A DNA stretch of 64,000 bases from Fuscovulum ytuae (GTDB lineage: Bacteria > Pseudomonadota > Alphaproteobacteria > Rhodobacterales > Rhodobacteraceae). Positions 20,941 to 36,563 of this stretch are shown in pieces. The stretch spans positions 1,458,001 to 1,522,000 of the forward strand of contig NZ_CP124535.1 in the NCBI RefSeq assembly GCF_029953595.1. Direction: 5' to 3'. Below the pieces are notes generated by a model, which ran no database searches, was not told the origin of the DNA, and saw nothing but the letters and a program-made list of their open reading frames with translations. How positions within the stretch are numbered: the first letter of the stretch is position 1; each line of letters starts with the position of its first letter. Made by a program: the position numbers and the translations under genes.

Positions 20941-22575
20941 TCAGGTTGGGTCGGTGCGCAGGCGGAAACGCTGGATCTTGCCGGTCTGGGTCTTGGGCAG
21001 GGCGGGGGTGAAGATCACGCGGCGGGGGTATTTATAAGGGGCGATCACGGATTTGACGTGGTCTTGCAGAAGTTTCACCATCAGCGCGTCGCCCGCCTGC
21101 CCTTCGGCGAGCACGACATGCGCCTCGACGATCTGGCCACGGTCTTCGTCCGGGGCGCCGATCACGGCACATTCGAGGACGGCGGGATGGGAGAGGAGCG
21201 CGGCCTCTACCTCTGGCCCTGCGATGTTGTAGCCCGCGCTGATGATCATATCGTCAGATCGGGCGGCGAAGTGAAAGCGCCCCTCGTCATCTTGCCAGAA
21301 ACTGTCGCCCGTCAGGTTCCAGCCATCCTGCACGTATCTGGTCTGGCGGGCATCGGCCAGATAGCGGCAGCCGGTTGGGCCGCGCACGGCGAGGCGGCCC
21401 ACCTCTCCGCTTGGCAATTCCTGCATGTCAGGGCCAACGATGCGCGCCTCATAGCCCCTGACGGGGCGGCCGGTGCAGCCGGGGCGGTGGTCATCAAAGC
21501 GGTTGGTGAGGAAGATATGCAGCATCTCGGTCGCGCCGATGCCGTCGAGCATGGGTTTGCCGGTTTTGGCCTGCCATTCGTCATAGACCGGGGCAGGCAG
21601 GGTTTCGCCTGCACTGACAGCGGCGCGGAGGGAGGAGAGATCGGCCCCTTCGGCCATGGCCTTCAGCATGACGCGATAGGCGGTGGGGGCGGTGAAGCAG
21701 ATCGTGGCGCGGTGTTCTTGGATGATGTCGATCATGTTTGGCGGGCTGGCCTGTTCCAGAAGGGCCGCCGCCGCGCCGAAACGCAGAGGGAAGATCGCCA
21801 ACCCGCCAAGGCCGAAGGTGAAGGCCAGCGGCGGGGAGCCGACGAAGATATCGTCGGGGGTGACGTTCAGCACCTCGCGCGCGTAGCCATCGGCGATGAT
21901 CAGAAGGTCGCGGTGGAAATGCATCGTGGCCTTGGGTTCCCCGGTCGTGCCGGAGGTGAAACCCAAAAGCGCCACATCATCGCGGCCTGTGGGCGGCGGG
22001 GTGAAGCGGACGGGTTTCTTCAGGGCGATACGGTCCAGTTCGGCATCATGGTTGGCCGTGCCGTCGAAGCCCACGACAGTGTGGAGGACGCGGGAGTCCT
22101 TTTGGCAGGCGACGAGGTCCTCGATCAGGCGCGTGTCGCAGAGGGCGTGGGTGATCTGGGCCTTGTCCACGATCTTGGCCAATTCGCCCGCGCGCAGCAT
22201 GGGCATGGTGTTGACGACCACGGCCCCCACCTTGGTGGCCGCAAGCCAGCAAGCGACCATGGCGGGGTTGTTGGCAGAGCGGATCAGGACGCGGTTGCCG
22301 GGGCGGATGCCGTACTCATCGACCAGCGCATGGGCGATGCGGTTGGACCAGTCCGTCAGTTCCTTGTAGGTGCGCGCGCGGCCATTGCCGATCAGGGCGA
22401 TACGGTCACCAAAGCCGCGGTCCACCATGCGGTCCGTCAGTTCGACCGCGGCGTTCAGCCATTCGGGATAGGCAAAACCATCAAGCCGCAGCTCGGGCCA
22501 TTGGTCGGGCGGGGGAAGGTTGTCGCGGGTGAAGCTGTCTTCGTGGCCCGAAGGGCCGAGCGTTTGGAACGACAT
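20941..22575 (-). CDS. Aryl-CoA ligase, 2-aminobenzoate/benzoate-CoA ligase type
   Basis: An ANL-superfamily acid:CoA ligase. The P-loop GFTSGTTGEPKATMHFHRDLL has the ATMHFHRD ending seen in 2-aminobenzoate- and benzoate-CoA ligases. ATEMLHIF (about 340) is the adenylate motif, and PKTQTGKIQRFRL closes the protein with the catalytic Lys. The 544 residues from ATG 22575 fit; the frame extends to 22671 only through a Pro-rich stretch created by the GC hairpin. Last gene of the catabolic run, after an APC permease. The exact acid (anthranilate, benzoate or another aromatic) is unproven. Confidence 0.82.
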   Translation of the reverse strand: MSFQTLGPSGHEDSFTRDNLPPPDQWPELRLDGFAYPEWLNAAVELTDRMVDRGFGDRIALIGNGRARTYKELTDWSNRIAHALVDEYGIRPGNRVLIRSANNPAMVACWLAATKVGAVVVNTMPMLRAGELAKIVDKAQITHALCDTRLIEDLVACQKDSRVLHTVVGFDGTANHDAELDRIALKKPVRFTPPPTGRDDVALLGFTSGTTGEPKATMHFHRDLLIIADGYAREVLNVTPDDIFVGSPPLAFTFGLGGLAIFPLRFGAAAALLEQASPPNMIDIIQEHRATICFTAPTAYRVMLKAMAEGADLSSLRAAVSAGETLPAPVYDEWQAKTGKPMLDGIGATEMLHIFLTNRFDDHRPGCTGRPVRGYEARIVGPDMQELPSGEVGRLAVRGPTGCRYLADARQTRYVQDGWNLTGDSFWQDDEGRFHFAARSDDMIISAGYNIAGPEVEAALLSHPAVLECAVIGAPDEDRGQIVEAHVVLAEGQAGDALMVKLLQDHVKSVIAPYKYPRRVIFTPALPKTQTGKIQRFRLRTDPT

Positions 22576-22602
22576 GGCACACCTTGGAGAGCTGGGGGGG
22601 GT

Positions 22603-22630
22603 GCGGGGGGGCGGATGGCCGCCCCCCCGC
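22603..22630. other. GC-only intercistronic hairpin
   Basis: Perfect 12-bp arms (GCGGGGGGGCGG and its complement) around the loop ATGG, between the permease stop and the ligase start. No U-tract follows, so it may be an RNA processing or stability element, or an attenuator reducing ligase expression. Confidence 0.65.
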
Positions 22631-22642
22631 CTTGTCACGGGG

Positions 22643-24136
22643 TCAGGCGCGGTTTTCGCCCATGCGGGCAAAGCCTGCCGGGTCCGCCTTTTCCAGCCGC
22701 AGCGCGGCCAGCCAGCCCACCACCGCCGCCAGCGGGATGATCGAGGGCAGCATCCAGCTCAGCCCGCCGCCCGCCGTTCCCGTCAGATCGCCAAAATTGG
22801 CGAAGATATAAAGGAACAGCGCCGCCATGATCGCCCCGGACAGTGCCGGCAGGATCAGGGTGGACATTGCCGGGGCTTCGCCCGCCGGCTGACGGCGGAA
22901 GAAGACGATCACGGCCAGCGACGTCACGACCATCATACCCAGCACGCCCAAGGTGCCGATCTGGCTGATCCATGTGAACATGTTCAGGATCGGATCAAGG
23001 CCAAGGCCTGCAAAGATCGCCAGCACGATCAGCGCGCCCACCGTTTGCACGACGGACCCCACATGCGGGCTGGCATGGGTGGCATGGGTACGGCCGAAGG
23101 CTGCGGGCAAAAGCCCCTCGCGCCCCGCGACATAGCTGTAGCGGGCGATGTAGTTGTGAAAGGCCGAGAGCGCGGCAAAGAGGCTGGAGACCAGCAGCAG
23201 CCCCGCGATGGGCGGGACCGGGCCGCCCACGTAGATATCGGCCAGCATGAAGAAGTATTCGGTCGGGTCGGCCAGACCGCCGATGGTGGGGATGAGGTTC
23301 TCTGCCCCGACGCCTGCGATCATCAGCCAGGTGGTGAAGACGAAGAACAGGCCGATCATCAGCACGGAAAGATAGGTCGCGCGGGGGATGGTCTTTTCGG
23401 GGTCGCGCGCCTCTTCAGCGTAGATCGTTGTCGCCTCGAACCCGATGAAGGAGCCAAGGCAGAAGAGGATGGCCGCGGTGAGAGAGCCGGAGAAGATGGC
23501 GTTGGTGTCAAAGAGATTGACCGACAGCCCGCCCGCATCCGTGGCCCCACCTGCGGCGAGGATGGCGAAATCGACGATCAGGACGATGAGGTATTCCAGC
23601 GCCACGAGGACGATCAGAACCTTGGCCGAGAGGTCCACCTGTCGATAGCCGAGGAGGCCGACAAGGGCGATGGCGATCAGGCTCCATCCCCACCAGGGCA
23701 GGTGGATGCCAAAGCTGCCGAAGACGCCTGCCGAGATGCCGCCCAGGAGGCCGATCAGGCCGAATTGCATGGCGTTATAGGCCGCCAGCGCGGTGAAGGC
23801 CGTGGCCCCCGCCCAGCGCCCGCCAAGGCCGCGCGCGGCATAGGCATAGAAGGCCCCCGCGTTCTTGACATGCCGCGACATGGCCACATAGCCCACCGCG
23901 AAGGCGAGCATGACCAGCGTCATGAAAAGGAAGGTCGCAGGCACGCCCGTGCCGTTTCCGATGAGGAAGGCGATGGGCACAGCCCCCGCCACCCCGGTGA
24001 GGGGGGCTGCCGCCGAGATCACCATGAAGGTGACGGCCAATAGCCCCAGCGAGTTTCGGCGCAACTGGTTTGCGCCGCCCCCCGTGTTCCCTGTTCCCGA
24101 AGTCCCTGTTCCCGAAGTCCCTGTTCCTTGTCCCAT
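22643..24136 (-). CDS. APC-family amino acid/amine permease
   Basis: An inner-membrane importer with about 12-14 helices and 497 residues, of the amino acid-polyamine-organocation superfamily. The first helix has AAAPLTGVAGAVPIAF, and a conserved EGA-like motif appears later as FIGFEATTIYAEEARDPEKTIP. The N-terminus begins with a low-complexity Gly/Thr/Ser repeat (GTGTSGTGTSGTG) unlike the rest. AGGAGC lies before the ATG. It lies in the same run as a glutamine-synthetase-like ligase and an aryl-CoA ligase, suggesting uptake of an amine-bearing aromatic or amino-acid-like substrate. Confidence 0.87.
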   Translation of the reverse strand: MGQGTGTSGTGTSGTGNTGGGANQLRRNSLGLLAVTFMVISAAAPLTGVAGAVPIAFLIGNGTGVPATFLFMTLVMLAFAVGYVAMSRHVKNAGAFYAYAARGLGGRWAGATAFTALAAYNAMQFGLIGLLGGISAGVFGSFGIHLPWWGWSLIAIALVGLLGYRQVDLSAKVLIVLVALEYLIVLIVDFAILAAGGATDAGGLSVNLFDTNAIFSGSLTAAILFCLGSFIGFEATTIYAEEARDPEKTIPRATYLSVLMIGLFFVFTTWLMIAGVGAENLIPTIGGLADPTEYFFMLADIYVGGPVPPIAGLLLVSSLFAALSAFHNYIARYSYVAGREGLLPAAFGRTHATHASPHVGSVVQTVGALIVLAIFAGLGLDPILNMFTWISQIGTLGVLGMMVVTSLAVIVFFRRQPAGEAPAMSTLILPALSGAIMAALFLYIFANFGDLTGTAGGGLSWMLPSIIPLAAVVGWLAALRLEKADPAGFARMGENRA

Positions 24137-24226
24137 TCGAAGCTCCTTGTTGGTTATGGGCCACGGTCTTTGCGCCGCGTGCCCCAGGGTGACCCCGGCC
24201 TCTGACGGGCCGGTGGATGGTTTGCG

Positions 24227-24748
24227 TCAGACCTCGGGTGCCGGAAGATGCACCGCCCGGCGATAGGCGCGCTGGCCATAAAGCAGCGCGGCGGGGTGGT
24301 CTGACAGTCGGACGGCGTGGACGCGCCCGACGATGATGTGATGCGTCTCCCACAGCAGTGTGGTGGCGAGGCGGCATTCGAAAACCGCGGTCGCGCCCGC
24401 AAGGATGGGCTGGCCCAGCCTGCCGGGGGACCAATCCGCGCGGTCGAAGCGGGCGGATTGGTCCTTGCCGTCGCGCCCGGCGAAAAGGTCGGCCAGTGCC
24501 TGCTGGTCTTCGGCCAGAAGATTGGCGCAGAAGGCGCGGTTTCTCAGGATCGCGGCTGCGGCAGGGCTTTGATGGTGGAGGCAGGCCAGAAGCGAGGGCT
24601 GATCCCCATCCGCCGCGACGGAGGTCAGCGAGGATACGGTGACCCCTGCCCTACCCCCTTCGCCATCGGTGGTGGCAACGGCGACGAAGGTGGCGGCGCG
24701 GCTCATGCCTTCCAAGAAACGGGCGCGGAGGTCCTCCATACCCGTCAT
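24227..24748 (-). CDS. Flavin reductase family protein
   Basis: A 173-residue FMN-binding split-barrel of the HpaC/FRP-like type. The family pattern of an N-terminal AATFVAVATT strand, GVTVSSLTSVAAD (about 35-47) and SLLACLHH, with FCANLLAEDQQ (about 73) and a C-terminal GRVHAVRLSD, is clear. It supplies reduced flavin to a monooxygenase partner. The best candidate in the operon is the acyl-CoA-dehydrogenase-fold protein at 28193. The start overlaps the stop of the glutamine-synthetase-like gene as ATGA. Confidence 0.85.
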   Translation of the reverse strand: MTGMEDLRARFLEGMSRAATFVAVATTDGEGGRAGVTVSSLTSVAADGDQPSLLACLHHQSPAAAAILRNRAFCANLLAEDQQALADLFAGRDGKDQSARFDRADWSPGRLGQPILAGATAVFECRLATTLLWETHHIIVGRVHAVRLSDHPAALLYGQRAYRRAVHLPAPEV

Positions 24749-26085
24749 CCCAGATCGAAGAAGCGTTCCAGTTCCACATCGGGAACCTTGCGGCGGAATT
24801 CGTCATATTGGCCTTCGCGGGTGGAGGTGAAGGCTTCGACAAAGCGGGCGCCCAGCCAATCCTTGGCGAAATCGGAACCCCGCAGGCGATCGATCGCCTC
24901 GGGCATCGACCGCGCGAAATCGCGGGGCGGTGTCTGGGCATAGCCCGATCCCAGCGTTTCGGGGTCAGGCTCCAGCCCTTCGATGATCCCTGCCACCCCG
25001 GCGGCAAGGGTCGCGGCGGTGGTGAGATAGGGGTTGGTATCCGCCCCGGGCAGGCGGTTTTCCACCCGCAGGCTGCCCGCGTCATGGCCCACAACACGGA
25101 AGCAGGTGGTGCGGTTTTCATAGCCCCAAGTCAGGCCGGGGGGCGCGAAGGTGCCGGGGGCAAAGCGACGGTAGCTGTTCACCGTGGGCTGGAAGATCAG
25201 GGTCATATCGCCGATGTATTTCTGCAAGCCGCCGAGGAAGTGCAGGAACGTCTGGCTGATGCCGTTCTTCGCGCCCGGATCGTGGAACAGCGGCTGGCCC
25301 GCGCGGTTTTTCAGGCTGATATGCAGATGGATCGACTGGCTGTCGGCCTGTTCGTTCCAGCGCGGCATGAAGGTGACGGACCTTCCCTGACGCAGGGCCA
25401 GCGCGCGGATGAAGTTCTTCAGCAGCACAAGCTGGTCGGCGGGTTCCAGCCCTTCGCCTGCGCCGATGCAGGCCTCCATGAAGCCTGCGCCGATCTCTTC
25501 ATGCATCTTGGCAAGGTCGATCTTCAGCGCCTCGCACATCTGGGCGATGGATTCATACCATTCTGTCTGGACGGCCTGATAGATCGTCAGGTCGTGGCTG
25601 GCATGCTGCGTCGCGGGTTTGAGGTTGCGGTATCCCTTGGCGCGGGCGCTTTCGGCGCTTTCGTCAAAGAGGGTATATTCCAGTTCCATTCCGTATTTCG
25701 GGATGAAGCCCGCCTCGGCCGCGCGGGCGAGGACGGATTTCAGGATCGCGCGGGGGCAGAGGCGCGCGCTTTCCCCGGTGAAGTTCGACAGGACCAGAAG
25801 ATCATGCCCCGGCGTCGACCATGGCAGACGGCGAGTTGTAGCGGGGTCAAGTTGCAGGGGGTCGTCGTGGAAATCGCCCGTTTCGTCATTCACGCCGGGG
25901 ATGGTGAGCAGGACATCCGTCGGGTCGAGCGAAAGCTGCGCAGGGGCCATGCCCATGCCGTTTTGCGCGATGCCCCGCAGGCTTTTGACCGAAACCATCT
26001 GCCCGCGCAGAAGGCCGTTGGTGTCGGCCATGGCGACGGTGGCAAAGCGGCTGGACGGATCGGAAAGATAGTCGTCGAGTGTCAT
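24745..26085 (-). CDS. Glutamine-synthetase-like gamma-glutamyl ligase
   Basis: A GS-fold ATP-dependent ligase of 446 residues. Visible sites: YGMELEYTLFD (metal-binding Glu), HEEIGAGFMEA, SQSIHLHISLKN (ATP/metal region), NSYRRFAPGTFAPPGLTWGYENR and RVENRLPGADTNPYL. Relatives include PuuA (gamma-glutamylputrescine), IpuC (isopropylamide) and the aniline enzymes AtdA1/TdnQ, so gamma-glutamylation of an amine is more likely than ammonia assimilation. The GAGF segment differs from the GPGQ of true glutamine synthetases. Coupled by ATGA overlaps to the TetR gene before it and the flavin reductase after it. Confidence 0.83.
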   Translation of the reverse strand: MTLDDYLSDPSSRFATVAMADTNGLLRGQMVSVKSLRGIAQNGMGMAPAQLSLDPTDVLLTIPGVNDETGDFHDDPLQLDPATTRRLPWSTPGHDLLVLSNFTGESARLCPRAILKSVLARAAEAGFIPKYGMELEYTLFDESAESARAKGYRNLKPATQHASHDLTIYQAVQTEWYESIAQMCEALKIDLAKMHEEIGAGFMEACIGAGEGLEPADQLVLLKNFIRALALRQGRSVTFMPRWNEQADSQSIHLHISLKNRAGQPLFHDPGAKNGISQTFLHFLGGLQKYIGDMTLIFQPTVNSYRRFAPGTFAPPGLTWGYENRTTCFRVVGHDAGSLRVENRLPGADTNPYLTTAATLAAGVAGIIEGLEPDPETLGSGYAQTPPRDFARSMPEAIDRLRGSDFAKDWLGARFVEAFTSTREGQYDEFRRKVPDVELERFFDLG

Positions 26086-26762
26086 GGTCCTGTCCCTGTG
26101 GTGTGGGCGCTTGCAAGCGCCTCTAGCTGTTCAAGATCGCGTGGCGGATCGGTGGAATAGGCGCGCAGGAAGACGCGCAGGCCGTTGGTGATGTATCGTG
26201 CCAGATCATCCCGCCCCGGCATGGCATCGGGGCGATAGAGGGCCTGTGTGCGGGGGGCGGAGAGGATCAGACCCCACAGGTCTTGCGCGGCGAGTTCGGC
26301 ATCGTCGAAAGCAAGGCGATCTGCGGCGCGCTGCGCATCGAGATAGGCCATGATGCCCGCAAGCAGGCGATCCGGGCCGCTGGCTTGATAGGCGCGACCG
26401 ATTTCGGGAAAGCGCTGCACCTCGCCGATGATGAGGCGGGCCAGCGAGAGCATTTCGGGGCGCATGACCACATCGGCATAATCCCATGCGAAGGCGTGCA
26501 GGTCATGGACCATGCCCTGAGCTGAGGGGTGTTCGAAGACAGTCATCATGCGGTCGCGCTGGCCCAGCATCATGGCCTGAAACAGCGTCTCTTTGCTGTC
26601 GAAATACTGGTAGAGCGTGGGTTTCGACAGGCCCACGGCGGCGGCGATGGCGTCCATGGTGGTCCCGGAATAGCCGGCCTCGGCAAAGACGCGCAACGCG
26701 CCGTCGAGGATGCGCCGCGTCCGTTCCATCCGGTTCTGTTCGCGGCGCGAGAGGGCGGTCAT
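26082..26762 (-). CDS. TetR/AcrR-family repressor
   Basis: 226 residues. The N-terminal helix-turn-helix is textbook (AGYSGTTMDAIAAAVGLSKPTLYQYFDSKETLF, split across about residues 29-60), and the C-terminal ligand domain is of the AefR-like type. It lies in the middle of the operon and overlaps both neighbours by 4 bases. The likely target is the operon promoter upstream of the NicX-like gene, where two dyads are found; the inducer should be a pathway substrate or intermediate. Confidence 0.9.
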   Translation of the reverse strand: MTALSRREQNRMERTRRILDGALRVFAEAGYSGTTMDAIAAAVGLSKPTLYQYFDSKETLFQAMMLGQRDRMMTVFEHPSAQGMVHDLHAFAWDYADVVMRPEMLSLARLIIGEVQRFPEIGRAYQASGPDRLLAGIMAYLDAQRAADRLAFDDAELAAQDLWGLILSAPRTQALYRPDAMPGRDDLARYITNGLRVFLRAYSTDPPRDLEQLEALASAHTTGTGP

Positions 26763-27589
26763 TTCGGCAGGCCCTGAAGGAAATCGGTCAGGTGGCGGGC
26801 ATAGAGGCCCGGCTGTTCAAGGTTGCAGACATGGCCCGCACCTTGGATCACCTCGAACCGCACATCGGGGCGGCGGGCGCTGTCCCAGATGCGGCCTGCC
26901 ACGGCGCGAATCTCGGACGGTGGGGCGAGGCGGTCATGTTCCCCGGTCATCATCAGGACGGGCATGGTGAGGCGTGCGAAATCAAAGCGTTCGCGCGGAT
27001 TGGTGAAACAGAGGAGCGCGTCACGATAGGTGGGCGCGGTGATCGCGGACATGGAGGCCAGAAGTTCGGCCTTTACCGTTTCCGTGGCATCGGGGCTGGC
27101 CAGCACCTTGACAACGGCGGGGGCGAAATCGGCGGGCACTTGGCCTGCGTTCAAGGGCACTTCGCGGGACAGGCGGAAGGCTTCGCGTTCTTCTGGCCCT
27201 GCCTCGGACATGCCGGTGCAGCCACCGGACAGGACAAGGCCGTCGAGCATTTCGGGGTGGCGCATGGCAAAGGAAGTGGCGATCCACGACCCGTAGGAGA
27301 GGCCAACGAAGGTCAGGCGGCGGGCACCCAGCACATCGCAGATGCGCAGGATATCGGCGCAGTAGTCATCCACGGTGGACCCACGGGGGCCAAGCGTGCT
27401 GTCGCCGTAACCGCGCAGATCAAGCGCTGCGGCGCGGATATGGGGGGCGGCGGCGGCCAGTTGGGCGCGCCAATTGCCGCGCCCGCCGCCGATGCCGTGA
27501 AGAAACAGGCAGAGGCGATCATCGCCAAGGTCAGGGGTCAGGGAAAGGCCGAGGCGGGGGAGATCGTCGATCACCCGCTCTTCGATCTG
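26759..27589 (-). CDS. Alpha/beta hydrolase, 5' end lost in the poly-C block
   Basis: An alpha/beta-fold hydrolase with the oxyanion strand FLHGIGGGRGNW, nucleophile Ser in GLSYGS, an acidic residue in MMTGEHDRL and the catalytic His in QGAGHVCNLEQP. About 277 codons are readable. The first few residues run into the artificial-looking G/C block at 27591, so the true start is not visible. Next to a NicX-like dioxygenase it could act as an N-formylamide deformylase (NicD-like) or a C-C bond hydrolase; neither is proven. Its stop overlaps the TetR start. Confidence 0.8.
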   Translation of the reverse strand, partial: QIEERVIDDLPRLGLSLTPDLGDDRLCLFLHGIGGGRGNWRAQLAAAAPHIRAAALDLRGYGDSTLGPRGSTVDDYCADILRICDVLGARRLTFVGLSYGSWIATSFAMRHPEMLDGLVLSGGCTGMSEAGPEEREAFRLSREVPLNAGQVPADFAPAVVKVLASPDATETVKAELLASMSAITAPTYRDALLCFTNPRERFDFARLTMPVLMMTGEHDRLAPPSEIRAVAGRIWDSARRPDVRFEVIQGAGHVCNLEQPGLYARHLTDFLQGLPK

Positions 27590-27590
27590 G

Positions 27591-27774
<184 letters not shown>

Positions 27775-28188
27775 GCCCTGTGCGAGGGCCGCGATCCCGG
27801 CCTGAAACACGGCGCGGGTTCCGTCGCAGATGGCTTGCAGGCGCGGTTGGGGCGCGGCGATCTGGGCCGTCCATGTCACGGTGCAGCCACCCGCTTCGGA
27901 CGGGGTCACGGTGACGCGGGCATCATAAGCCTCGCATCCGGCGATGCCTTCCAGATGGGTATAGGCGAGCGTGCGGTCGCTGTCGGACAGATAGCTGCGC
28001 TGTTCGCGGTAAAGCGTCGCCTCGCCCTTCACGGTGAAGCTGCGGATCAGGTGGCCCTGCGCATCGCGTTCGGCGCGGATCGTGTCGATCCATGGATGCC
28101 ATGCCCCGGCGAAATCACGGATCGTGGCCCAGACCGCCGCCGCGTCGGCGGGGCAATGGCCGTGGACATGGACGCCCTCGCGCGGCAT
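27775..28188 (-). CDS. SRPBCC (START/PYR1-like) protein, 3' end lost in the poly-C block
   Basis: A small hydrophobic-ligand-binding fold like the MxaD/polyketide-cyclase group. About 138 readable residues show the typical beginning (VHGHCPADAAAVWATIRDFAGAW, with the CPADxVW pattern) and mid-region strands ending in the helix GTRAVFQAGIAALAQ. Little, probably under 15 residues, is missing. ATG 28188 is chosen over 28221 because it does not overlap the upstream gene. The family binds or cyclises aromatic or lipid ligands; the substrate here is unknown. Confidence 0.72.
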
Positions 28189-28192
28189 GGCG

Positions 28193-29536: not shown

Positions 29537-30594
29537 CAGGCAAGCTCTCCTTGCAGAACGCCGTCGCGCACGACGACGCGCCCGTCGAGGGCGATGGTGC
29601 AGTTGCGCATCGGCAGGTCGAAATGGCCTAGCGTGTAGCGGCCCGCATATTGATTGGCGCCAGTGGACCAGAGGAACGATCCGGCAATGGCGCGGAATTC
29701 GACGGCCTGCATGTCGCGCTTGTCATACATCGCGGCGGAAACCCATTTCGCGCCGTGGTTCATCCCCCAGCCCACATGGGACAGGCCATAGGCGTTCCGG
29801 TCGCCCCATGATTCCATATATTCGCGGAAGTGGAGGGCATCGATGCCATCGCCACGGATCGCGGTGACGAAATCGTTTTCGATGGTGAAATCGATGCGGC
29901 TGGTGAGGAAGGTTTTGAACGTCAGGTTCATGTCGCCCACGTCCATCACGATGCGCCCGTTGACCGCATCCTTGCCGGGGAAAGCAAGGCAGAGGCCGCC
30001 CGGCCAATGCGCCACCGCGCCGGCGGTGGTGCCAAAGCCTGCGGTCCCGCCACAGGGCGCGCCCCGCAGGTTGACGGTCAGGTCGGTGCCAGCGGCGGAG
30101 GTGACGCGCATTTCGGACGCCTCGCGCAGCATCTGGATGCCGATCTGGAGTTTCACCGCATCCTCGGCCTTGGGTTCGGTGCGTTCAAGGATTTCGGGAT
30201 GTTCGTTCGTGATGACGAGCAGGCGGGTGCGGCCTGCCTCTTCGATTTCGGGCCATTCGGGGGCGTGGATCAGGCCTTCGACGGTGCAATCGACGATGAT
30301 GTCGACACGCTTGAGCGCCTCGATCACGGCGCGGTTGCCTTGGATCGCCCAAGAGGTGCCGGTGGATTTCACCGGGACGGGGGCGGTTTGCGGCGGCGTG
30401 GGCATGGAGATCATGCAGAAGGACGCGCCAAGGTCATGGGCGGCCAGTTCGGAAAGATGCACCAGAACCGGGCGCGACTGCGTTTCCGAAAGGATCGCGA
30501 CCTCTGTCCCCTGCCCTATGCCGTTCAGCGCAAAGACACGCCGAAAGGCGGCAAGCCATTTGCCTTCGATGCGTTCCCGAAGCATCGCCACCAT
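29536..30594 (-). CDS. 2,5-dihydroxypyridine 5,6-dioxygenase (NicX)-like ring-cleavage enzyme
   Basis: 352 residues. The C-terminal half aligns by eye with NicX: YGLSHVGWG carries His273, and TLGHFDLPMRN carries His324 and Asp326, matching in spacing the His-His-Asp Fe(II) triad described for NicX. GSFLWSTGAN is also shared. The family includes M29-type aminopeptidase relatives, but these ligands favour a dioxygenase. It is the first gene of the nine-gene catabolic run, downstream of two dyads. The start may be ATG 30594 or ATG 30585; the latter has the better-spaced AGGG. The substrate is probably an aminohydroxy- or dihydroxy-N-heterocycle, unproven. Confidence 0.8.
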   Translation of the reverse strand: MVAMLRERIEGKWLAAFRRVFALNGIGQGTEVAILSETQSRPVLVHLSELAAHDLGASFCMISMPTPPQTAPVPVKSTGTSWAIQGNRAVIEALKRVDIIVDCTVEGLIHAPEWPEIEEAGRTRLLVITNEHPEILERTEPKAEDAVKLQIGIQMLREASEMRVTSAAGTDLTVNLRGAPCGGTAGFGTTAGAVAHWPGGLCLAFPGKDAVNGRIVMDVGDMNLTFKTFLTSRIDFTIENDFVTAIRGDGIDALHFREYMESWGDRNAYGLSHVGWGMNHGAKWVSAAMYDKRDMQAVEFRAIAGSFLWSTGANQYAGRYTLGHFDLPMRNCTIALDGRVVVRDGVLQGELA

Positions 30595-30607
30595 CCCTGT
30601 TCATTCG

Positions 30608-30643
30608 ATTCGCATGCGCGAATTTCTTAACTTTGCAGTTAAG
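30608..30643. promoter_or_regulatory. Two adjacent dyads upstream of the NicX-like gene
   Basis: ATTCGC-ATGC-GCGAAT (30608-30623) and CTTAACT-TTGC-AGTTAAG (30626-30643) are perfect inverted repeats separated by two bases, 14-50 bases upstream of the first gene of the run. This is where a TetR repressor would sit; the operon encodes one. A run of 11 G at 30709-30719 lies further upstream. Confidence 0.65.
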
Positions 30644-30738
30644 GTTTCACGGGGGCGGCGGATCTGTCAACGGAAACTTCAAGCTTGAAATATTAGGGTG
30701 GTTGGATTGGGGGGGGGGGCGTGTGGCCCTCTGCCCTA

Positions 30739-31605
30739 TCAGCCTTCTGCGATGCGGCGGGTGAGGCTGGCCCCGTCAAAGCCGGACAGGCCGGAGGCGA
30801 TTGCGGCCTCATAGGTGGCAAGGGCATCGGCGGCCAAAGGCAGCCCCGCGCCGTCGGATTGGGCAAGATCGAGCGCGAGACGCAAGTCCTTGGCCAGCCC
30901 TGCCAGATCAAAGGTGCCCGGGTGATCGGTGCCGCGCAGCGTATCGACCACGATCTGCGCACGGTTCTTCAGCACGGTGGGGCCTGCGGAACTGTCGGCA
31001 ATCAGGCTTATGGCCTGTTCCGGGTCGATGCCCGCGCCGCGCAAGAGGCGCAGGCTTTCGCCCAAGGTCTGCCAATAGATTGCGAGTGGCAGGTTGACGG
31101 CGAGTTTCATGCGGGCAGCAGCGGCAGGGCTGCCCACGGCTTCGACACGGCGGCAAAGGCTATCGAGGATCGGGCGGGCGCGGGCGATGGCGGCATCCGT
31201 GCCGCCCGCCATGCCCAGAAGCTGCCCCTTGAGGGCGGGAGCCACGGTGCCGCCGACGGGGCAATGCACAAAATCCGCGCCGGCAGAGGTGGCCTGCGCG
31301 GCAAGCGCTTCGGCCATGGCGGGGGGAAGCGTGGACATGTCGATGACAAGCCGCCCATTGATCCCGGCGCTGGCAAGGGCGTCCATCACAGCCGTCGATG
31401 CGGTGGCATCGGTGAGCGAAAGAAGGATCGCGTCGCAGGCGGCGAGGCGGGGGATATCGACCGCCTCGGCCCCTGCCCCCATCGCCTCGGCCATCCGGTC
31501 GGGGCTACGGTTCCAGATGCGGACGGAATGTCCCGTTTCGATCAGGCGACGGGCGAAGGCGGTGCCCATGCGGCCGGTTCCGGCGATGCCGATGGTCTGT
31601 GTCAT
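30739..31605 (-). CDS. 3-hydroxyisobutyrate-dehydrogenase-like NAD(P) oxidoreductase
   Basis: A beta-hydroxyacid dehydrogenase of 288 residues. The Rossmann loop GIAGTGRMGTAFARRL, the DMSTLPP motif (about 95), the substrate loop CPVGGTVAPALKGQL (about 115) and the catalytic Lys in AARMKLAVNLPL (about 165) are visible. The family oxidises or reduces short 3-hydroxyacids such as tartronate semialdehyde or 3-hydroxyisobutyrate. The start overlaps the RraA-like stop by 4 bases, so it ends a three-gene operon with RraA and FAH proteins, probably the lower part of the same pathway. Confidence 0.87.
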   Translation of the reverse strand: MTQTIGIAGTGRMGTAFARRLIETGHSVRIWNRSPDRMAEAMGAGAEAVDIPRLAACDAILLSLTDATASTAVMDALASAGINGRLVIDMSTLPPAMAEALAAQATSAGADFVHCPVGGTVAPALKGQLLGMAGGTDAAIARARPILDSLCRRVEAVGSPAAAARMKLAVNLPLAIYWQTLGESLRLLRGAGIDPEQAISLIADSSAGPTVLKNRAQIVVDTLRGTDHPGTFDLAGLAKDLRLALDLAQSDGAGLPLAADALATYEAAIASGLSGFDGASLTRRIAEG

Positions 31606-32231
31606 GGCGTGGCTCCGTTCAATCCCAATATTTGCAGGGTGGTTTCTCCGGCGCGGAGGCGGTCCATCATCCGGGCCTCTTTTTCCGTGCGGGTGGCGGC
31701 AGCGGCGAGGGCGGGGGCAAGATCAGAAGCAGGCAGGCAGACCAAGGCATCGGCGTCGGCGAGAATGATGTCGCCGGGGCGAATGGTGGCCCCGCCAAGG
31801 GTTATGGGTGCGCCGATGGTGCCGGGGTGACGTTTCGTTGTGCCGCGGATGTTCAGGCCTGCGCAGAAGACGGGAAAGCCCATGGCGGCGATCTGGGCGC
31901 TGTCGCGCACGGCGCCGTCTATGACAAGGCCTGCGATACCGCGCAGGGTGCAGGCAAGGGCCATCACCTCGCCGAACGGGCCGGAGGCAAGGCTGCCGCC
32001 GTAATCGACCACCAGCACGTCACCCGGACGGGCGGCGGCGATGGCAAGGTGCAGGGCAAGGTTGTCCCCCGGCTGGCAGATCACGGGAAGGGCTGGCCCT
32101 GCCAGCGCCATGCCGGGGGCAAGGGGGCGAAGGGGGCGGTCGATCAGGGTGGCAGAGGGCCACGCCTCGCAGAGCGTGGCCGTCCCATGGGCCAGAAGAT
32201 CGGCCGCGCCCGTCATGGCGGTATCGGTCAC
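31602..32231 (-). CDS. RraA-like protein, probable 4-hydroxy-2-oxoacid aldolase
   Basis: A 209-residue RraA/MenG-fold protein. The GLVIDGAVRDS segment, with Arg-Asp at the metal site, and VVDYGG...GPFGE (about 80-95) are the hallmarks shared by 4-hydroxy-4-methyl-2-oxoglutarate / 4-carboxy-4-hydroxy-2-oxoadipate aldolases. In a catabolic cluster an aldolase or oxaloacetate-decarboxylase role is more likely than RNase E inhibition. Overlaps both neighbours by ATGA. Confidence 0.82.
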   Translation of the reverse strand: MTDTAMTGAADLLAHGTATLCEAWPSATLIDRPLRPLAPGMALAGPALPVICQPGDNLALHLAIAAARPGDVLVVDYGGSLASGPFGEVMALACTLRGIAGLVIDGAVRDSAQIAAMGFPVFCAGLNIRGTTKRHPGTIGAPITLGGATIRPGDIILADADALVCLPASDLAPALAAAATRTEKEARMMDRLRAGETTLQILGLNGATP

Positions 32232-32926
32232 GCAGCCTTGCCGCCGATGCGGACCTGCATCGGTTCAAGCCCATCGACCGAGCAATCCAGCACATCGCCG
32301 CTGACCACGGCGCCTACGCCTGCGGGCGTGCCCGTCAGGATGATGTCACCCGGCATCAGGCGGTGCTGTTCCGAGATCTTCGAGATGATCTCATCGACCT
32401 TCCAGATCATCAGCGAGATATCGGCATCCTGCCGCACGTCGCCGTTCACCTTGAGCGTGACATGCCCGCTGGTGAGGATGCCGCAGGCCGAGGCGGGGGT
32501 GATGGGGCCGATGGGGGCGGACATGTCAAAACCCTTCGTCACCTCCCACGGCATGCCCTTGGCCATCACTTCGGGCTGGTGGTCGCGGCGGGTCATGTCG
32601 AGGCCGACGGCATAGCCGTAGATATGGCTGTTCGCCTCAGAGACCGGAATGTTGTAGCCGCCCGACTTCAGCGCGACCACAAGTTCGCATTCGTAATGGA
32701 AGTTGTTGGTGAAGACCGGATAGGGGATTTCGCCGCCGTTTTTCACGATGGCATCGGTCGGCTTCATGAAGATCACCGGCGGGTCACGCTCGTCTGCGTT
32801 CATCTCATGGATATGGGCCAGATAGTTCTTGCCGATGCAGTAGATGCGCCGGACGGGGAATTTTTCATCCGATCCGGTGATGTCGAGATGGGCCTGCGCC
32901 GGGGGGGTAAGGGCAAATGCCGCCAT
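32228..32926 (-). CDS. Fumarylacetoacetate-hydrolase (FAH) family protein
   Basis: 232 residues from ATG 32926 (AGGAGA upstream). The family core is intact: YCIGKNYLAHIHEM (about 31), FMKPTDAIV (about 55), HYECELVVAL with the metal Glu residues (about 76-85), GYAVGLDMTRRD with the metal Asp (about 104), and TGTPAGVGAV near the end. It resembles fumarylpyruvate hydrolases, which cleave the C-C bond of ring-opened 3-oxo acids; hydratases and isomerases share the fold. First gene of the FAH-RraA-dehydrogenase operon, divergent from the ABC importer. The frame is open to 33013, but the family N-terminus begins at 32926. Confidence 0.85.
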   Translation of the reverse strand: MAAFALTPPAQAHLDITGSDEKFPVRRIYCIGKNYLAHIHEMNADERDPPVIFMKPTDAIVKNGGEIPYPVFTNNFHYECELVVALKSGGYNIPVSEANSHIYGYAVGLDMTRRDHQPEVMAKGMPWEVTKGFDMSAPIGPITPASACGILTSGHVTLKVNGDVRQDADISLMIWKVDEIISKISEQHRLMPGDIILTGTPAGVGAVVSGDVLDCSVDGLEPMQVRIGGKAA

Positions 32927-33017
32927 GTCTGTCTCCTGCAAAGGGGGGCCGGGCGGCCCGAGGATTCGCTTCAATCTTCGGGCAAGGATTTCCCGCTTCG
33001 CCGCGCAGATCAAGATA

Positions 33018-33033
33018 CGAAAACTGATTTTCG
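33018..33033. promoter_or_regulatory. Dyad in the divergent FAH / ABC importer promoter region
   Basis: CGAAAA-CTGA-TTTTCG is a perfect inverted repeat in an AT-rich stretch (33010-33080) between the two divergent operons. ATACGA (33015) and TCGTAT (33069) form a second, wider pair. The GntR regulator at 35853 is the natural candidate to bind here. Confidence 0.5.
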
Positions 33034-33161
33034 GATGTTTTGTATATTTTTTTGATTTTCACAACGAATCGTATAGCGTGAGGTGGAGAGCGCGCGGACG
33101 GCCCACCCGGACCGGCGTTCCAAGGGAACAAGACGAAGAAACAAAAGGGAGGAGAGACATC

Positions 33162-34190
33162 ATGACCACGACAAGACTGACGCGGCGCGGCTTTGGCTTG
33201 CTGACTGCGGGGGGGGCGGCGGGCCTTGTGCTTGGTGCACCGGCCATCGTCCGGGCGCAGACGGCGGTGACCTTTGCGGTGCCCAACCCGTCCGCCCTGA
33301 CTTGGCTGCCCTATTGGGTCGCTGTGGGCGAAGGCTATTTTGGGGAGGAAGGCCTTGACCTGCGGCTTGAGGCCATTGACGGGTCTTCCGCCGTGCTGCA
33401 GGCGATGTCGGCGGGTCAGGCGCAGATCGGCGCGCCGGGACCGGGGCCGACCCTTGGTGCGCGGTCGCGCGGGGTGGATGTGAAGTTCCTGTACAACCTC
33501 TATCCCAAGTCGGTCTTCGGCCTGCTGGTCAAGGATGAAAGCGCCTATCAGACCCCGGCTGATCTGAAGGGAACCGTGATCGGCGTGGGCACGGCGGATG
33601 GGGCGGAAGTGTCCTTCACCCGCGCGATCATGACCGATCTGGGGATGGCAGAAGGCGCGGATTACAGCTTCTTGCCCGTCGGTGATGGCGGCACCGCGGC
33701 GGTGGCCTTCCTGCGTGACGAGGTGGGGTCCTATGCGGGCGCGGTGTCGGATGCGGCGATCCTTGCCTCGCGCGGGCTGACCTTGCGCGAAATCACGCCC
33801 GAGGCCTATCTGGGCTTCTTCGGCAACGGCATTGCCATGCTGGAAAGCCAGATGGCCGCCACACCCGATCTTGCGCCGAAATTCGGCAAAGCGCTGGTGC
33901 GGGGGATGCGTTTTGCGTCCGATCCGGCGAACAAGGAAAAGGCGCTGGCGCATTGTGCGGCAGGCAACCCGCAGGAAGGCGAACAGGATTATGCGGCCTC
34001 GCTCTATGACGGGGTGGTGTTCCGCATGACGCCGACCGAGGCCTTTGCCGCGCAGGGCTTTGGCTATCAGCCGCCGGAGCATTGGCAGAAGATCCATGAC
34101 AGCGCCGTGGCTTCGGGCGCGCTGGAGGCACCGCTGGAGGACCTTTCCGCTGTCTACACGAATGATTTCGTGGCAGGCTGGAACGCCTGA
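33162..34190 (+). CDS. NMT1/SsuA-type ABC transporter substrate-binding protein, Tat-exported
   Basis: 342 residues. The N-terminus is a twin-arginine signal (LTRRGFGLLTAGGAAGLVLG) with likely cleavage after VRAQ or just before it. The mature protein has the NMT1/TauA-like layout: SALTWLPYWVAVGEGYFGEEGLDL, then GQAQIGAPG and VIGVGTADGAE. The start ATG 33162 follows GGGAGGAGAG. The family binds small organic nitrogen or sulfur compounds (taurine, sulfonates, pyrimidine precursors, aromatics). The permease and ATPase follow directly. The ligand is presumably the pathway substrate. Confidence 0.9.
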   Translation: MTTTRLTRRGFGLLTAGGAAGLVLGAPAIVRAQTAVTFAVPNPSALTWLPYWVAVGEGYFGEEGLDLRLEAIDGSSAVLQAMSAGQAQIGAPGPGPTLGARSRGVDVKFLYNLYPKSVFGLLVKDESAYQTPADLKGTVIGVGTADGAEVSFTRAIMTDLGMAEGADYSFLPVGDGGTAAVAFLRDEVGSYAGAVSDAAILASRGLTLREITPEAYLGFFGNGIAMLESQMAATPDLAPKFGKALVRGMRFASDPANKEKALAHCAAGNPQEGEQDYAASLYDGVVFRMTPTEAFAAQGFGYQPPEHWQKIHDSAVASGALEAPLEDLSAVYTNDFVAGWNA

Positions 34191-35005
34191 TGACGATGGC
34201 AGAGCCCCGACCCATGACAGCAGAACCGGTCGCCCCGCGGCGACCGGTCTATGAGATCGCGCGGCTGTCGAAGACCTATGCCCGCAACCGCCTGACGGCG
34301 CTGACCGATGTGAACCTGACCCTGCATGAAGGGGAGTTCGTGTCGGTCGTCGGATCGTCAGGCTGCGGGAAATCGACATTGCTGAAGATCATGTCGGGGC
34401 TCTTGCCGCCTACAACGGGGCGGGTGATGTTGGCGGGGCGGCCCGTCACAGGCCCGCGTGACGATATCGGGATGATGTTCCAGCAGGCGACATTGCTGCC
34501 GTGGAAGACGACGATCGAGAATATCGTCCTGCCGATCGAAATTCGCGAAGGGCGCGCGGCGGCCAAAGCCGCCCTGCCCCGCGCACAGGATTTGCTGACG
34601 CTGGTGGGGCTTGGCGATTTCGCCAATGTCTATCCGGGCGAGTTGTCGGGCGGGATGGCGCAGCGGGCGTCGATCTGCCGAATGCTGATTTCGAACCCGG
34701 CGGTGCTGCTCTTGGATGAGCCGTTTTCGGCGCTGGACGAATTGACGCGCGATTTCATGAATATGGAATTGCAGCGCATCTGTGCAGAACAGAATGCGAC
34801 GGCCTTCCTGGTCACCCATTCGCTGGCCGAGGCGGTGATCCTGTCGGACCGCATTCTTGTGATGAAGCCGCGTCCGGGGCGGGTGGTGGAGGAGATTGTG
34901 GTCGATCTGCCGCGCCCCCGCACGCTGGAGATGATCAACACCCCGCGCTTTGGCGAGATCGTTGCCCATATCCGTGACCTTCTGGGGAAGGAGGCCCATG
35001 AATGA
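34190..35005 (+). CDS. ABC transporter ATPase (SsuB/TauB type)
   Basis: 271 residues with Walker A GSSGCGKST (about 56-64), Q-loop MMFQQATLLPWK, signature LSGGMAQRASICRML, Walker B VLLLDEPFSALDE and the switch His in LVTHSLAEA. The MAQR variant of the signature is common in nitrate/sulfonate-type importers. Its ATG shares one base with the substrate-binding protein stop, and its end overlaps the permease start. Confidence 0.94.
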   Translation: MTMAEPRPMTAEPVAPRRPVYEIARLSKTYARNRLTALTDVNLTLHEGEFVSVVGSSGCGKSTLLKIMSGLLPPTTGRVMLAGRPVTGPRDDIGMMFQQATLLPWKTTIENIVLPIEIREGRAAAKAALPRAQDLLTLVGLGDFANVYPGELSGGMAQRASICRMLISNPAVLLLDEPFSALDELTRDFMNMELQRICAEQNATAFLVTHSLAEAVILSDRILVMKPRPGRVVEEIVVDLPRPRTLEMINTPRFGEIVAHIRDLLGKEAHE

Positions 35006-35850
35006 CAACCCTGCCCGATCCGAATGCCGATACCGTCTGGGTAGAGCGCGAATCCTTTATTGACCGTATCCCGCGCTGGGTGGCGATGCTGGCCCTGGCG
35101 GTGGTGGTGATCACGATCTGGGATCTGGCCACGGCGCGGATGGGATGGGTGTCGCCCATCATCCTGCCCAGCCCGGCCGAGACGCTGTCGGACCTGATCT
35201 TCGTGGGCAAGAACCTTTTGTCGGGCGATTACATGCTGGCCGCGCTATGGACGACGACGCGGACGGTGTTCTGGGCCTTTCTGATTGCTGGGGCGATCGG
35301 GTTCTCGCTGGGCGTTCTGGTGGGCGAGACGAAATTCGGCGAGCGGGCGGTGATGCCCTATCTGGTGGCCATCGACACCATGCCGAAAGTGGCCTTCGCA
35401 CCACTGTTCATTGCGTGGCTGGGGTTCGACATTTCATCCAAGGTGGCGCTGGCGGCATTCATCGCGACCTTTCCCATCGTGGTGTCCACCGCCGCAGGCC
35501 TTTATGCCGCGAGCGAGAATGAACGCATGTTGTTCAAATCCATGGGGGCGACGCGCTGGCAGACCTTGGTGCGGCTGAAGCTGCCCACAGGCCTGCCGCA
35601 TATCTTCACGGGGTTGAAGATCGCCGCCGTCGGCGTGATGGCTGGGGCGATCACGGGTGAGTTCTTGGGCGGCGGGCAGGGTTTTGGCGCGCTGATCCGG
35701 CAATCGGCCAGCCAGATGGATACGCCGCGTGTGTTCGCGCTGATCCTATATCTAAGCCTGCTGGGCTTGGCCCTTTATTTCACGGTCGTCTGGTTGCAGA
35801 AGAAGCTTGTGTTCTGGAACAAGGCAGATCGGCCCGGTGGAGTGATGTGA
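35002..35850 (+). CDS. ABC transporter permease (SsuC/TauC type)
   Basis: 282 residues, about six membrane helices and the BPD-type EAA loop (SMGATRWQTLVRLKLPTGLPHIFTG) that contacts the ATPase. A hydrophilic N-terminus of about 25 residues precedes the first helix. One permease gene, so it presumably works as a homodimer. Part of the importer operon that ends in the GntR gene. Confidence 0.93.
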   Translation: MTTLPDPNADTVWVERESFIDRIPRWVAMLALAVVVITIWDLATARMGWVSPIILPSPAETLSDLIFVGKNLLSGDYMLAALWTTTRTVFWAFLIAGAIGFSLGVLVGETKFGERAVMPYLVAIDTMPKVAFAPLFIAWLGFDISSKVALAAFIATFPIVVSTAAGLYAASENERMLFKSMGATRWQTLVRLKLPTGLPHIFTGLKIAAVGVMAGAITGEFLGGGQGFGALIRQSASQMDTPRVFALILYLSLLGLALYFTVVWLQKKLVFWNKADRPGGVM

Positions 35851-35852
35851 CG

Positions 35853-36563
35853 ATGAATGCCTCTGACAAGGGGTTGAGCGATCCCAGAAACCTGTCGGAA
35901 CAGGCGCATGAGCGTATCCGGCGGGACATTCTGAATGGCGAACTGTTTCCCGGTGAGAAGTTGCAGATCGAGGCGATCTCGGAGCGCTATGCCATTGGGA
36001 TCGCCCCGGTGCGCGAGGCGCTGAACCGGCTTTCCTCGGAAGGGTTGGTGGAACGCAAGAGCCAGCGCGGGTTCTTCGTGGCCGAGATTTCCATGACCTC
36101 GCTGGAAGAACTGGTGAAGACGCGGATCTGGCTGGAGACGCTGGCCCTGCGGGAATCCATCGCTCGGGCGGATGAGGCATGGGAGGAGGCGCTCGTTCTG
36201 TCATACCATCGGTTGGCGCGGACGGCGCGGCGGATGCCGGCCGAGGCGGGGCGAGAGCTTTCCGAGGAATGGGAACAGCGCCACAAGGAATTTCACCTTC
36301 TGCTGTTGGATCGGTGCGGGTCGGGTTGGCTTTTGGGGTTCTGTTCCACGATGATGGATCAGGCGGTGCGTTATCGCAGCCTGTCGATGAATGTGCATCC
36401 CAGCCTGCAACGGCGCGAGGGGGCAGCGGCGGAACATGAGGCGATCCTGAAAGCCGCCATCGACCGCGATGCCGATCTGGCCTGCAAGCTGCTGACGGAT
36501 CATTACACCACGACCTTGGAAGGGTTGCGGGGCATCGTGGGCGCGTCGGAAGGGCCGGGCTAA
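35853..36563 (+). CDS. GntR-family regulator (FCD/FadR subfamily)
   Basis: A winged-helix domain (IRRDILNGELFPGEKLQIEAISERYAIGIAPVREALNRL, about residues 17-55) is followed by an all-helical FCD ligand domain with the metal-type residues in RHKEFHLLLL and AAAEHEAIL. Last gene of the importer operon. A GTG at 35847, overlapping the permease stop, is an alternative start two codons earlier. Likely represses the importer and the divergent FAH operon until a pathway acid binds. Confidence 0.9.
   Translation: MNASDKGLSDPRNLSEQAHERIRRDILNGELFPGEKLQIEAISERYAIGIAPVREALNRLSSEGLVERKSQRGFFVAEISMTSLEELVKTRIWLETLALRESIARADEAWEEALVLSYHRLARTARRMPAEAGRELSEEWEQRHKEFHLLLLDRCGSGWLLGFCSTMMDQAVRYRSLSMNVHPSLQRREGAAAEHEAILKAAIDRDADLACKLLTDHYTTTLEGLRGIVGASEGPG

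Follow-up and report, generated by a model that had tools for sequence, protein, structure and literature searches.

An operon of Fuscovulum ytuae with a NicX-like dioxygenase and an anthranilate-type CoA ligase: a possible route from indole to anthraniloyl-CoA

The window analyzed here is a 64-kb stretch (64,000 nucleotides) of contig NZ_CP124535.1 of Fuscovulum ytuae, whose genome comprises 4,185,011 bases. Its minus strand carries, at 20941-30594, an operon of eight genes that encode, in order, a NicX-like dioxygenase, a flavoprotein of the acyl-CoA dehydrogenase (ACAD) fold, an SRPBCC-alpha/beta hydrolase, a TetR-family regulator, a glutamine-synthetase-like (GS-like) ligase, a flavin reductase, an APC-family permease, and an aryl-CoA ligase (Table 1). 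Stop and start codons overlap at the NicX/ACAD, hydrolase/TetR, TetR/GS-like, and GS-like/flavin reductase junctions, and the spacing is ~90 bp before the permease and ~70 bp before the CoA ligase. An earlier reading of this DNA (the original prediction) had described a nine-gene run; all of the genes that it named are present, with the family assignments that it gave, and only the count changes, to eight, because the SRPBCC and hydrolase domains form one open reading frame (ORF) in relatives.

Table 1. Positions in the window of the operon genes, the predicted operator, and the adjoining genes.
Feature	Position	Strand	Basis or remark
NicX-like non-heme Fe(II) ring-cleaving dioxygenase, predicted indoxyl 2,3-dioxygenase	29536..30594	-	7cn3 similarity, ligand residues
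ACAD-fold flavoprotein, predicted oxygenase component of indole 3-hydroxylase	28193..29536	-	Pfam ACAD domains
SRPBCC + alpha/beta hydrolase, predicted N-formylanthranilate deformylase	26759..28188	-	single fused gene in relatives
SRPBCC part	~27790-28188	-	break ~27588-27774
Alpha/beta hydrolase part	26759-~27590	-	break ~27588-27774
TetR-family regulator (TetR_C_7)	26082..26762	-	domain match
GS-like ligase	24745..26085	-	family match
Flavin reductase (RutF/HpaC type), predicted partner of ACAD-fold protein	24227..24748	-	family match
APC-family permease	22643..24136	-	Pfam
Aryl-CoA ligase, predicted 2-aminobenzoate (anthranilate)-CoA ligase	20941..22575	-	start placed by eye at MSFQTLG methionine
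Palindrome CTTAACTGCAAAGTTAAG, predicted TetR operator	30626..30643	.	upstream of NicX
FAH, RraA, and dehydrogenase genes, judged outside the system	30739..33013	-	not kept in relatives
NMT1-type ABC importer (binding protein, ATPase, permease) and GntR, judged outside the system	33159..36563	+	first start approximate

The SRPBCC-hydrolase is a single ORF of 441-463 amino acids in congeners and of 429 amino acids on plasmid pAA02 of Aminobacter aminovorans; its counterpart on plasmid p1 of Ensifer adhaerens is one 430-amino-acid "alpha/beta fold hydrolase", for which the fusion was judged from length. In the window, the two parts lie in different frames and are parted by a nearly pure C/G stretch (~27588-27774) with runs of 16, 12, 77, and 15 C. 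No second stretch of that kind occurs elsewhere in the window, and in one congener (L012) the matched parts are separated by just 66 nt of ordinary sequence. The C/G stretch looks like an assembly artefact.

Conservation of the operon was assessed in 80 related loci, the best 80 of 115 confirmed and hence picked for similarity, which span Rhodobacterales, Mesorhizobium, Rhizobium, Shinella, Sulfitobacter, Phaeobacter, and others; each count gives presence in the locus at an identity floor of 40-70%, set by gene, with too-short contigs excluded. The ACAD-fold gene was present in 78/78 loci, the SRPBCC domain in 77/77, the hydrolase in 77/77, TetR in 74/77, the GS-like gene in 71/75, the flavin reductase in 66/74, and the APC permease in 55/73, a grouping far beyond chance. 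That the genes might not be neighbors in any relative, which the original prediction had named as grounds for giving it up, was examined in these loci, and the genes of the NicX block do adjoin across them. Five congeners with the block (L012-L016) keep every part of it, with both flanks mostly different; an acetate-CoA ligase is a flank gene common to the window and L012/L022. On the Ensifer plasmid, unrelated genes flank a set of exactly seven (M29-like, ACAD, hydrolase, TetR, GS-like, flavin reductase, and APC), and an IS3 transposase lies 1.1 kb upstream of the set. As the NicX-like gene was found in 5 of 18 other genomes of the genus, the operon is an accessory unit.

Upstream of NicX lies the palindrome CTTAACTGCAAAGTTAAG, itself preceded by a TTGACA hexamer (~30665-30670, located by eye). 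The pattern CTTWACYNNNNRGTWAAG has a single site in the entire genome, at the NicX promoter (backward control, 0; 1 observed in the window versus 0.00 expected). The exact pattern occurs within 160 bp upstream of NicX in 49 of the 80 related loci and at 166 and 172 bp in 2 more, and it was not found upstream of NicX in the other 29. With the palindrome at the promoter and the TetR gene inside the operon, a dedicated, self-controlled switch fits, and we infer that the TetR protein represses its own operon from this predicted operator.

The NicX-like protein matches NicX of Pseudomonas putida (PDB 7cn3) over residues 16-345 with an E-value of 2.1e-56. The same structure was the top Foldseek match (33% identity, TM 0.76) to an AlphaFold model of moderate confidence, built from 11 sequences (mean pLDDT 67, low confidence at ~182-201); because of this confidence level, no pocket argument was built on the model. 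Pfam and NCBIfam scans at 0.001 gave no model matching the protein, and the public annotation of its gene in two annotated plasmids is "peptidase M29" (L149:14007-15059 and L174:9004-10053). According to the available portion of the NicX study (PMC7910607), the iron ligands of NicX are His265, Ser302, His318, and Asp320, each of which is needed; Glu177 bonds N1 and O1 (the 2-hydroxyl), His189 bonds O1, and the E177A variant retains 2.7% activity. The activity reported in that portion is on 2,5-dihydroxypyridine and no other substrate.

We aligned 120 proteins, including 112 rows from the module (89 of the window clade and 23 of a sister clade; five congener loci appear twice, leaving 107 distinct loci) and 7 other NicX-like proteins. 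The four ligands are kept in the module rows save for one protein (Asp320 to Val), and His105 and His189 occur in 112/112 and 110/112 rows, respectively. Glu177, retained by 4 of the 7 other NicX-like proteins, is found in none of the 112: the position holds Thr in all 89 window-clade rows, the window protein among them, and Gly (13) or Val (10) in the 23 sister-clade rows. In a tree of 51 sequences, rooted by hand on the other NicX-like proteins, the module proteins form one clade of 43 members with a support of 0.95. With the ligands kept and Glu177 lost, iron chemistry is expected and recognition of a 2-hydroxypyridine is not; the protein is of the same family as NicX and probably catalyzes the same kind of reaction, without being the same enzyme. 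A nicotinate- or picolinate-type pathway via 2,5-dihydroxypyridine, at which the original prediction hinted, draws on this family membership and on the adjoining hydrolase, but is highly improbable in our estimate: the residue that recognizes the 2-hydroxypyridine, so costly to NicX when changed to Ala, is replaced at all 107 distinct loci, the operon ends in an anthranilate-type CoA ligase, and neither an amidase nor a maleate isomerase gene is among its genes.

True ACADs have a catalytic glutamate, to which a proline of the ACAD-fold protein is aligned (one pairwise alignment, with 1ws9). Its low-identity matches include both true ACADs and ACAD-fold oxygenases, and two features of ACAD-fold two-component monooxygenases are present, namely ACAD domains without the catalytic Glu and a reductase encoded in the same operon. 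Comparison supports the originally proposed hydroxylation by a two-component flavin system. For its substrate, a C3-substituted indole (indole-3-acetate, skatole, or a tryptophan-derived acid) might be considered, with the side chain removed or the C2-C3 bond cleaved without indoxyl. IacA belongs to indole-3-acetate breakdown, and APC permeases usually carry amino acids. An available part of a 2018 review (PMC6221969) lists IacA, which is ACAD-like, as indole-oxidizing, and one distant locus (L017) has a tryptophan-dioxygenase-like gene together with enoyl-CoA hydratase and thiolase genes. Against such a substrate, which we consider quite unlikely, stand the chemistry of NicX, which needs a C-OH next to a CH-N, and the operon genes, among which there is no Rieske oxygenase, SDR, or amidase.

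The best solved relative of the CoA ligase is the anthranilate-CoA ligase 4wv3 (E 7.1e-83), and the NCBIfam model benz_CoA_lig scores it at 363 bits, with a cut-off of 375. The window genome contains one copy at 1e-80, and an ortholog occurs once each in 10 of 14 tested genomes of the genus. In the NicX-less congeners G006, G017, and G018, this ortholog lies ~4 kb from a gene for 2-aminobenzoyl-CoA/salicylyl-CoA monooxygenase-reductase (ABM/R), which we called by model NF006101 over its curated cut-off of 1078 bits; it is not so placed in NicX-less G007, and no ligase match at 1e-80 was found in NicX-less G004, G009, G013, and G016, of which G009 and G016 do have ABM/R. In the block-bearing G014, ligase (C30:15517-17142) and ABM/R (C30:8710-10983) are 4.5 kb apart, separated by SDR, enoyl-CoA hydratase, and acyl-CoA dehydrogenase genes, and the NicX block continues from the ligase. 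The ABM/R of the window genome (C1:1796819-1799092; 1280 bits) has the same SDR, hydratase, and dehydrogenase neighbors (C1, ~1.794-1.799 Mb) and lies 316 kb from the ligase. Because the ligase ortholog stands near ABM/R and the window genome has a single copy of its own, the ligase at the operon's end seems to be the enzyme by which anthranilate enters the anthraniloyl-CoA pathway, and the link to anthranilate that the aryl-CoA ligase had originally brought to mind gains support from the comparison.

The catalytic triad of the hydrolase (Ser, Asp, and His) is invariant in an alignment of 7 relatives, and the enzyme resembles PcaD, esterases, and meta-cleavage hydrolases. Comparison also supports the originally outlined sequence in which an iron enzyme of the NicX family opens the ring and hydrolysis follows. 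In a quinolone route, the flavoprotein would give a 3-hydroxy-4-quinolone and the hydrolase would itself be a cofactor-free 2,4-dioxygenase of the Qdo/Hod type, which shares its fold class, and would form, as the same end product, N-formyl- or N-acylanthranilate; we find this scarcely credible, as no Qdo or Hod chain is named among 57 PDB matches of the hydrolase up to 1e-7 and the iron enzyme would be left without a role.

The genes upstream of the operon bear on another alternative. By counts that rest on ORF clustering and are lower bounds, a gentisate/5-aminosalicylate-type dioxygenase gene lies upstream on the same strand in at least 30 of the 80 related loci, an FAH gene in at least 35, a nitrilase-like gene in at least 22, and a second flavin-reductase-like gene (named from annotation; no NCBIfam model matched) in at least 35. 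The dioxygenase and FAH genes, the resemblance of the hydrolase to meta-cleavage enzymes, and the loss of Glu177, which suits a substrate without ring nitrogen and 2-OH, would all fit the opening of a carbocyclic ring by the NicX-like enzyme (in an aminophenol- or hydroquinone-type acid such as 5-hydroxyanthranilate), with the hydrolase acting as a meta-cleavage-type C-C hydrolase and anthraniloyl-CoA lying on a parallel or upstream branch. Such loci would, however, carry two ring-cleaving enzymes for one substrate class, the activity reported for NicX in the available text is on its pyridine only (PMC7910607), and the operon ligase is an ortholog of the ligase beside ABM/R; we therefore regard carbocyclic cleavage as unlikely.

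We propose instead, at a confidence that falls just short of even, that the operon serves to convert indole, or a closely related compound in which C2-H is free, to anthraniloyl-CoA. The ACAD-fold oxygenase and the flavin reductase would convert indole to indoxyl (3-hydroxyindole), the NicX-like Fe(II) enzyme would cleave the C2-C3 bond of indoxyl to yield N-formylanthranilate, the SRPBCC-alpha/beta hydrolase would release anthranilate by removing the formyl group, and the CoA ligase would convert anthranilate to anthraniloyl-CoA, the degradation being completed by the ABM/R, SDR, enoyl-CoA hydratase, and acyl-CoA dehydrogenase genes elsewhere in the genome. Removal of a formyl group is also the task of NicD in nicotinate breakdown. 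The step formulas balance (C8H7N to C8H7NO to C8H7NO3 to anthranilate plus formate). Indoxyl has a C3-OH next to C2-H and NH; its cleavage would parallel the conversion of 2,5-dihydroxypyridine to N-formylmaleamate, in which NicX likewise breaks the bond joining the C-OH to the CH beside nitrogen, and it is free of the 2-hydroxyl that Glu177 would bind. The listing of the ACAD-like IacA as an indole oxidizer (PMC6221969) also speaks for the proposed route. N-formylanthranilate was reported by mass in Providencia, according to the available part of that work (PMC9871250). In outline (hydroxylate, open, hydrolyze, activate), the original interpretation appears to be right.

Of 385 genomes of the class that were surveyed, 49 have a NicX-like match at 1e-30, and 26 of these, the window genome included, count as module genomes (full-length match with at least 46% identity; the partial match of G163 was excluded), and the module clade occurs in 18 alphaproteobacterial families of the sample. 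We inspected 22 distant neighborhoods (L017, L018, and 20 more, with G080, G323, and G395 outside the set), some of them on contigs that end early. Within 7 kb of NicX, a hydrolase was found in 19, an ACAD-fold gene in 18, a CoA ligase in 17, and all three in 15; at L135 and L136 the CoA ligase is a 27% one on the far side of NicX, and at L141 none of hydrolase, ACAD, ligase, and flavin reductase lies within that distance. A class-A FAD hydroxylase stands near NicX at L018 and L146, where there is no ACAD; as it takes the place of ACAD there, a hydroxylase beside NicX is the usual state. The distant hydrolases are without SRPBCC where aligned (L017, L018); an ORF at L018 considered as an SRPBCC-hydrolase fusion proved to hold the hydrolase domain alone. 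Several other ORFs were set aside as antisense artefacts (for example, a minus-strand ORF of 773 amino acids at L142).

ABM/R scores over the cut-off in 19 of the 26 module genomes and in 46 of the 359 others (Fisher p 5e-11, with related genomes counted as independent), and in at least one module genome of 14 of the 18 families. It lies beside the module at L140 (genome G406), where a 769-amino-acid protein scores 1316 bits and the gap to NicX is 5.6 kb, and also at L142 (G123; 3.6 kb) and L147 (G397; 7.7 kb), L140 and L142 being from one genus. In a separate set of 36 operon-bearing isolates, an ABM/R match was found in all 36 (35 over the cut-off and one partial of 583 bits); these were chosen from the 80 loci with MAG-titled records avoided and with no genus-matched control set. 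Control of ABM/R by the same TetR operator was examined and rejected, the pattern being absent from L161 and L162 and its sole genomic site being at NicX.

Several observations weigh against the indole route. The CoA ligase is present in just 10 of 69 related loci, the ligases of the distant loci belong to another subgroup (27-30% to the window ligase), and of the 22 distant loci just 4 have a flavin reductase within 7 kb of NicX. The scheme gives no role to the GS-like enzyme, the SRPBCC domain, or the APC permease, and IifC, IndA, XiaF, and IacA are not named among 50 PDB matches of the ACAD-fold protein, no direct sequence comparison with them having been made. The class-wide ABM/R count is uncorrected for phylogeny and scored two ABM/R candidates per genome; 7 of the 26 module genomes are without an ABM/R over the cut-off (one, G326, has a contig-end fragment), as is the genome with the partial module, G163 (19/27 with it counted), and the other NicX-like genomes are somewhat enriched as well (7/23 versus 39/336 of those with neither). 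Among 18 congeners, ABM/R occurs in 5/5 with the NicX block and in 9/13 without it, and being common with or without the block, its presence alone says little within the genus. The upstream gentisate-type dioxygenase could mean another substrate. Lastly, NF006101, which we take to include 2-aminobenzoyl-CoA monooxygenase/reductase, is named for salicylyl-CoA 5-hydroxylase, and this name leaves room for salicylate.

In that case, salicylate would be formed from an O-heterocycle, and ABM/R, acting as the salicylyl-CoA 5-hydroxylase, would lead to gentisate for the upstream dioxygenase. In G430 (C9:27743-31315), a gentisate-type dioxygenase gene is indeed divergent to ABM/R at a distance of ~190 bp, and in G427 the two are 2.7 kb apart. 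We nevertheless judge salicylate a very unlikely product: among solved chains the ligase is closest to an anthranilate-CoA ligase, the known NicX-family member acts next to a ring nitrogen, and the window genome itself has no match to the gentisate-type dioxygenase at 1e-30, so that a gentisate branch with a near relative of that dioxygenase cannot operate here. The arrangement in G430 may connect the hydroxylation of anthraniloyl-CoA with ring cleavage of the gentisate type, and the dioxygenase near ABM/R in G430 and G427 may represent the missing anthranilate-to-gentisate branch. More broadly, and with still less assurance than for the operon itself, we suggest that a NicX-family "indoxyl 2,3-dioxygenase" may form the core of a further bacterial indole route, which in many rhizobia and rhodobacteria would work together with a dioxygenase of the gentisate type, a candidate for the missing genes of the anthranilate-to-gentisate branch; the gene for the gentisate branch of indole degradation had not yet been revealed, according to the available part of the 2018 review (PMC6221969). 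The idea that this dioxygenase replaces ABM/R (complementary loss) was rejected, with an ABM/R match in 36/36 genomes and the dioxygenase in 25/36.

Searching the literature, we found no description of the operon among the matches listed, as judged by titles and abstract openings, and we claim no novelty in print; no paper was found on NicX with ACAD and flavin reductase or on a dihydroxypyridine cluster with glutamine synthetase. The operon resembles the NicX-NicD pair of nicotinate degradation in P. putida KT2440 in having an Fe(II) dioxygenase with the same four ligands and an adjoining alpha/beta hydrolase predicted to remove a formyl group. It differs in that the module members are without Glu177, the maleamate amidase and isomerase are not in the operon, the hydroxylase is of the ACAD fold with a flavin reductase, and the last gene encodes an anthranilate-type CoA ligase. 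With the aerobic 2-aminobenzoyl-CoA pathway it shares the ligase, an ortholog of the one at the side of ABM/R, and the ABM/R, SDR, hydratase, and dehydrogenase genes are found elsewhere in the genome; the difference is that an upstream ring-opening operon has either taken in the ligase or become attached to it. In the iif/ind (ipo-dho) operon of Acinetobacter, Cupriavidus, and Pseudomonas, as described in the available portions of two papers (PMC6221969, PMC12538310), a flavin oxygenase and reductase act on indole and the route ends in anthranilate, as is predicted here, and in Cupriavidus a 2-aminobenzoyl-CoA cluster follows. Unlike that operon, ours has no IifB-type SDR among its genes and no recognized cofactor-free oxygenase of the IifA type (IifA was not compared by sequence), and instead has the iron ring-cleaving enzyme and the predicted formyl hydrolase. 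The intermediates proposed here are also those of an old proposal for a 1953 bacterium (indole to N-formylanthranilate to anthranilate), to which no genes are assigned in the available part of the review that describes it (PMC6221969), whereas the present operon would assign genes to the cleavage of indoxyl without isatin.

If the proposal is true, the operon would open to genetic study an indole route that uses neither isatin nor the iif enzymes, extend the NicX family from pyridines to indoles, and correct the "peptidase M29" label of the NicX-like gene. Indole is both a signaling molecule and a pollutant.

The flanking genes, in contrast to those of the block, were judged not to belong to the system. 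The original prediction, a real observation drawn too wide, had placed beside the block an FAH-RraA-dehydrogenase operon and a divergent ABC importer with GntR. These seven genes, at 60% identity or more, accompany NicX in none of the 80 related loci, 72 of these loci extending 5 kb or more upstream of NicX, nor are they beside the block in the five congeners that carry it; the joining of the two operons is not supported. The proposed "aldol/oxo-acid processing" step is likewise unsupported, because the FAH-RraA-dehydrogenase genes on which it was based do not travel with the block. The window FAH was dismissed as a pathway member, its relatives at 89-95% identity being found in 3 of 18 congeners and, in the one of these three that has the block (G014), on another contig. 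Together with the divergent NMT1-type importer and GntR, the FAH-RraA-dehydrogenase genes (30739-36563) may constitute a unit of their own.

Homarine was looked into as well and gave nothing useful. At L017:15997-17112, the tryptophan-2,3-dioxygenase-like gene, followed by the enoyl-CoA hydratase and thiolase genes, lies downstream of a NicX-alpha/beta hydrolase-ACAD-ligase-TRAP cluster. ORF cluster 12, represented in 15 of the 80 loci, fuses the flavin reductase with a substrate-binding domain of the LysR type (for example, L068:15706-16872 and L149:19707-20885); a DNA-binding part was not seen in the member scanned. The GS-like gene recalls the gamma-glutamylation of aromatic amines in the aniline route. 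At five loci (L035, L041, L057, L090, and L095), the NicX locus contains a second GS-like gene, a cytochrome P450 gene, and a class-I glutamine amidotransferase-like gene, a set that, speculatively, might glutamylate an aromatic amine, hydroxylate it, and then release it.

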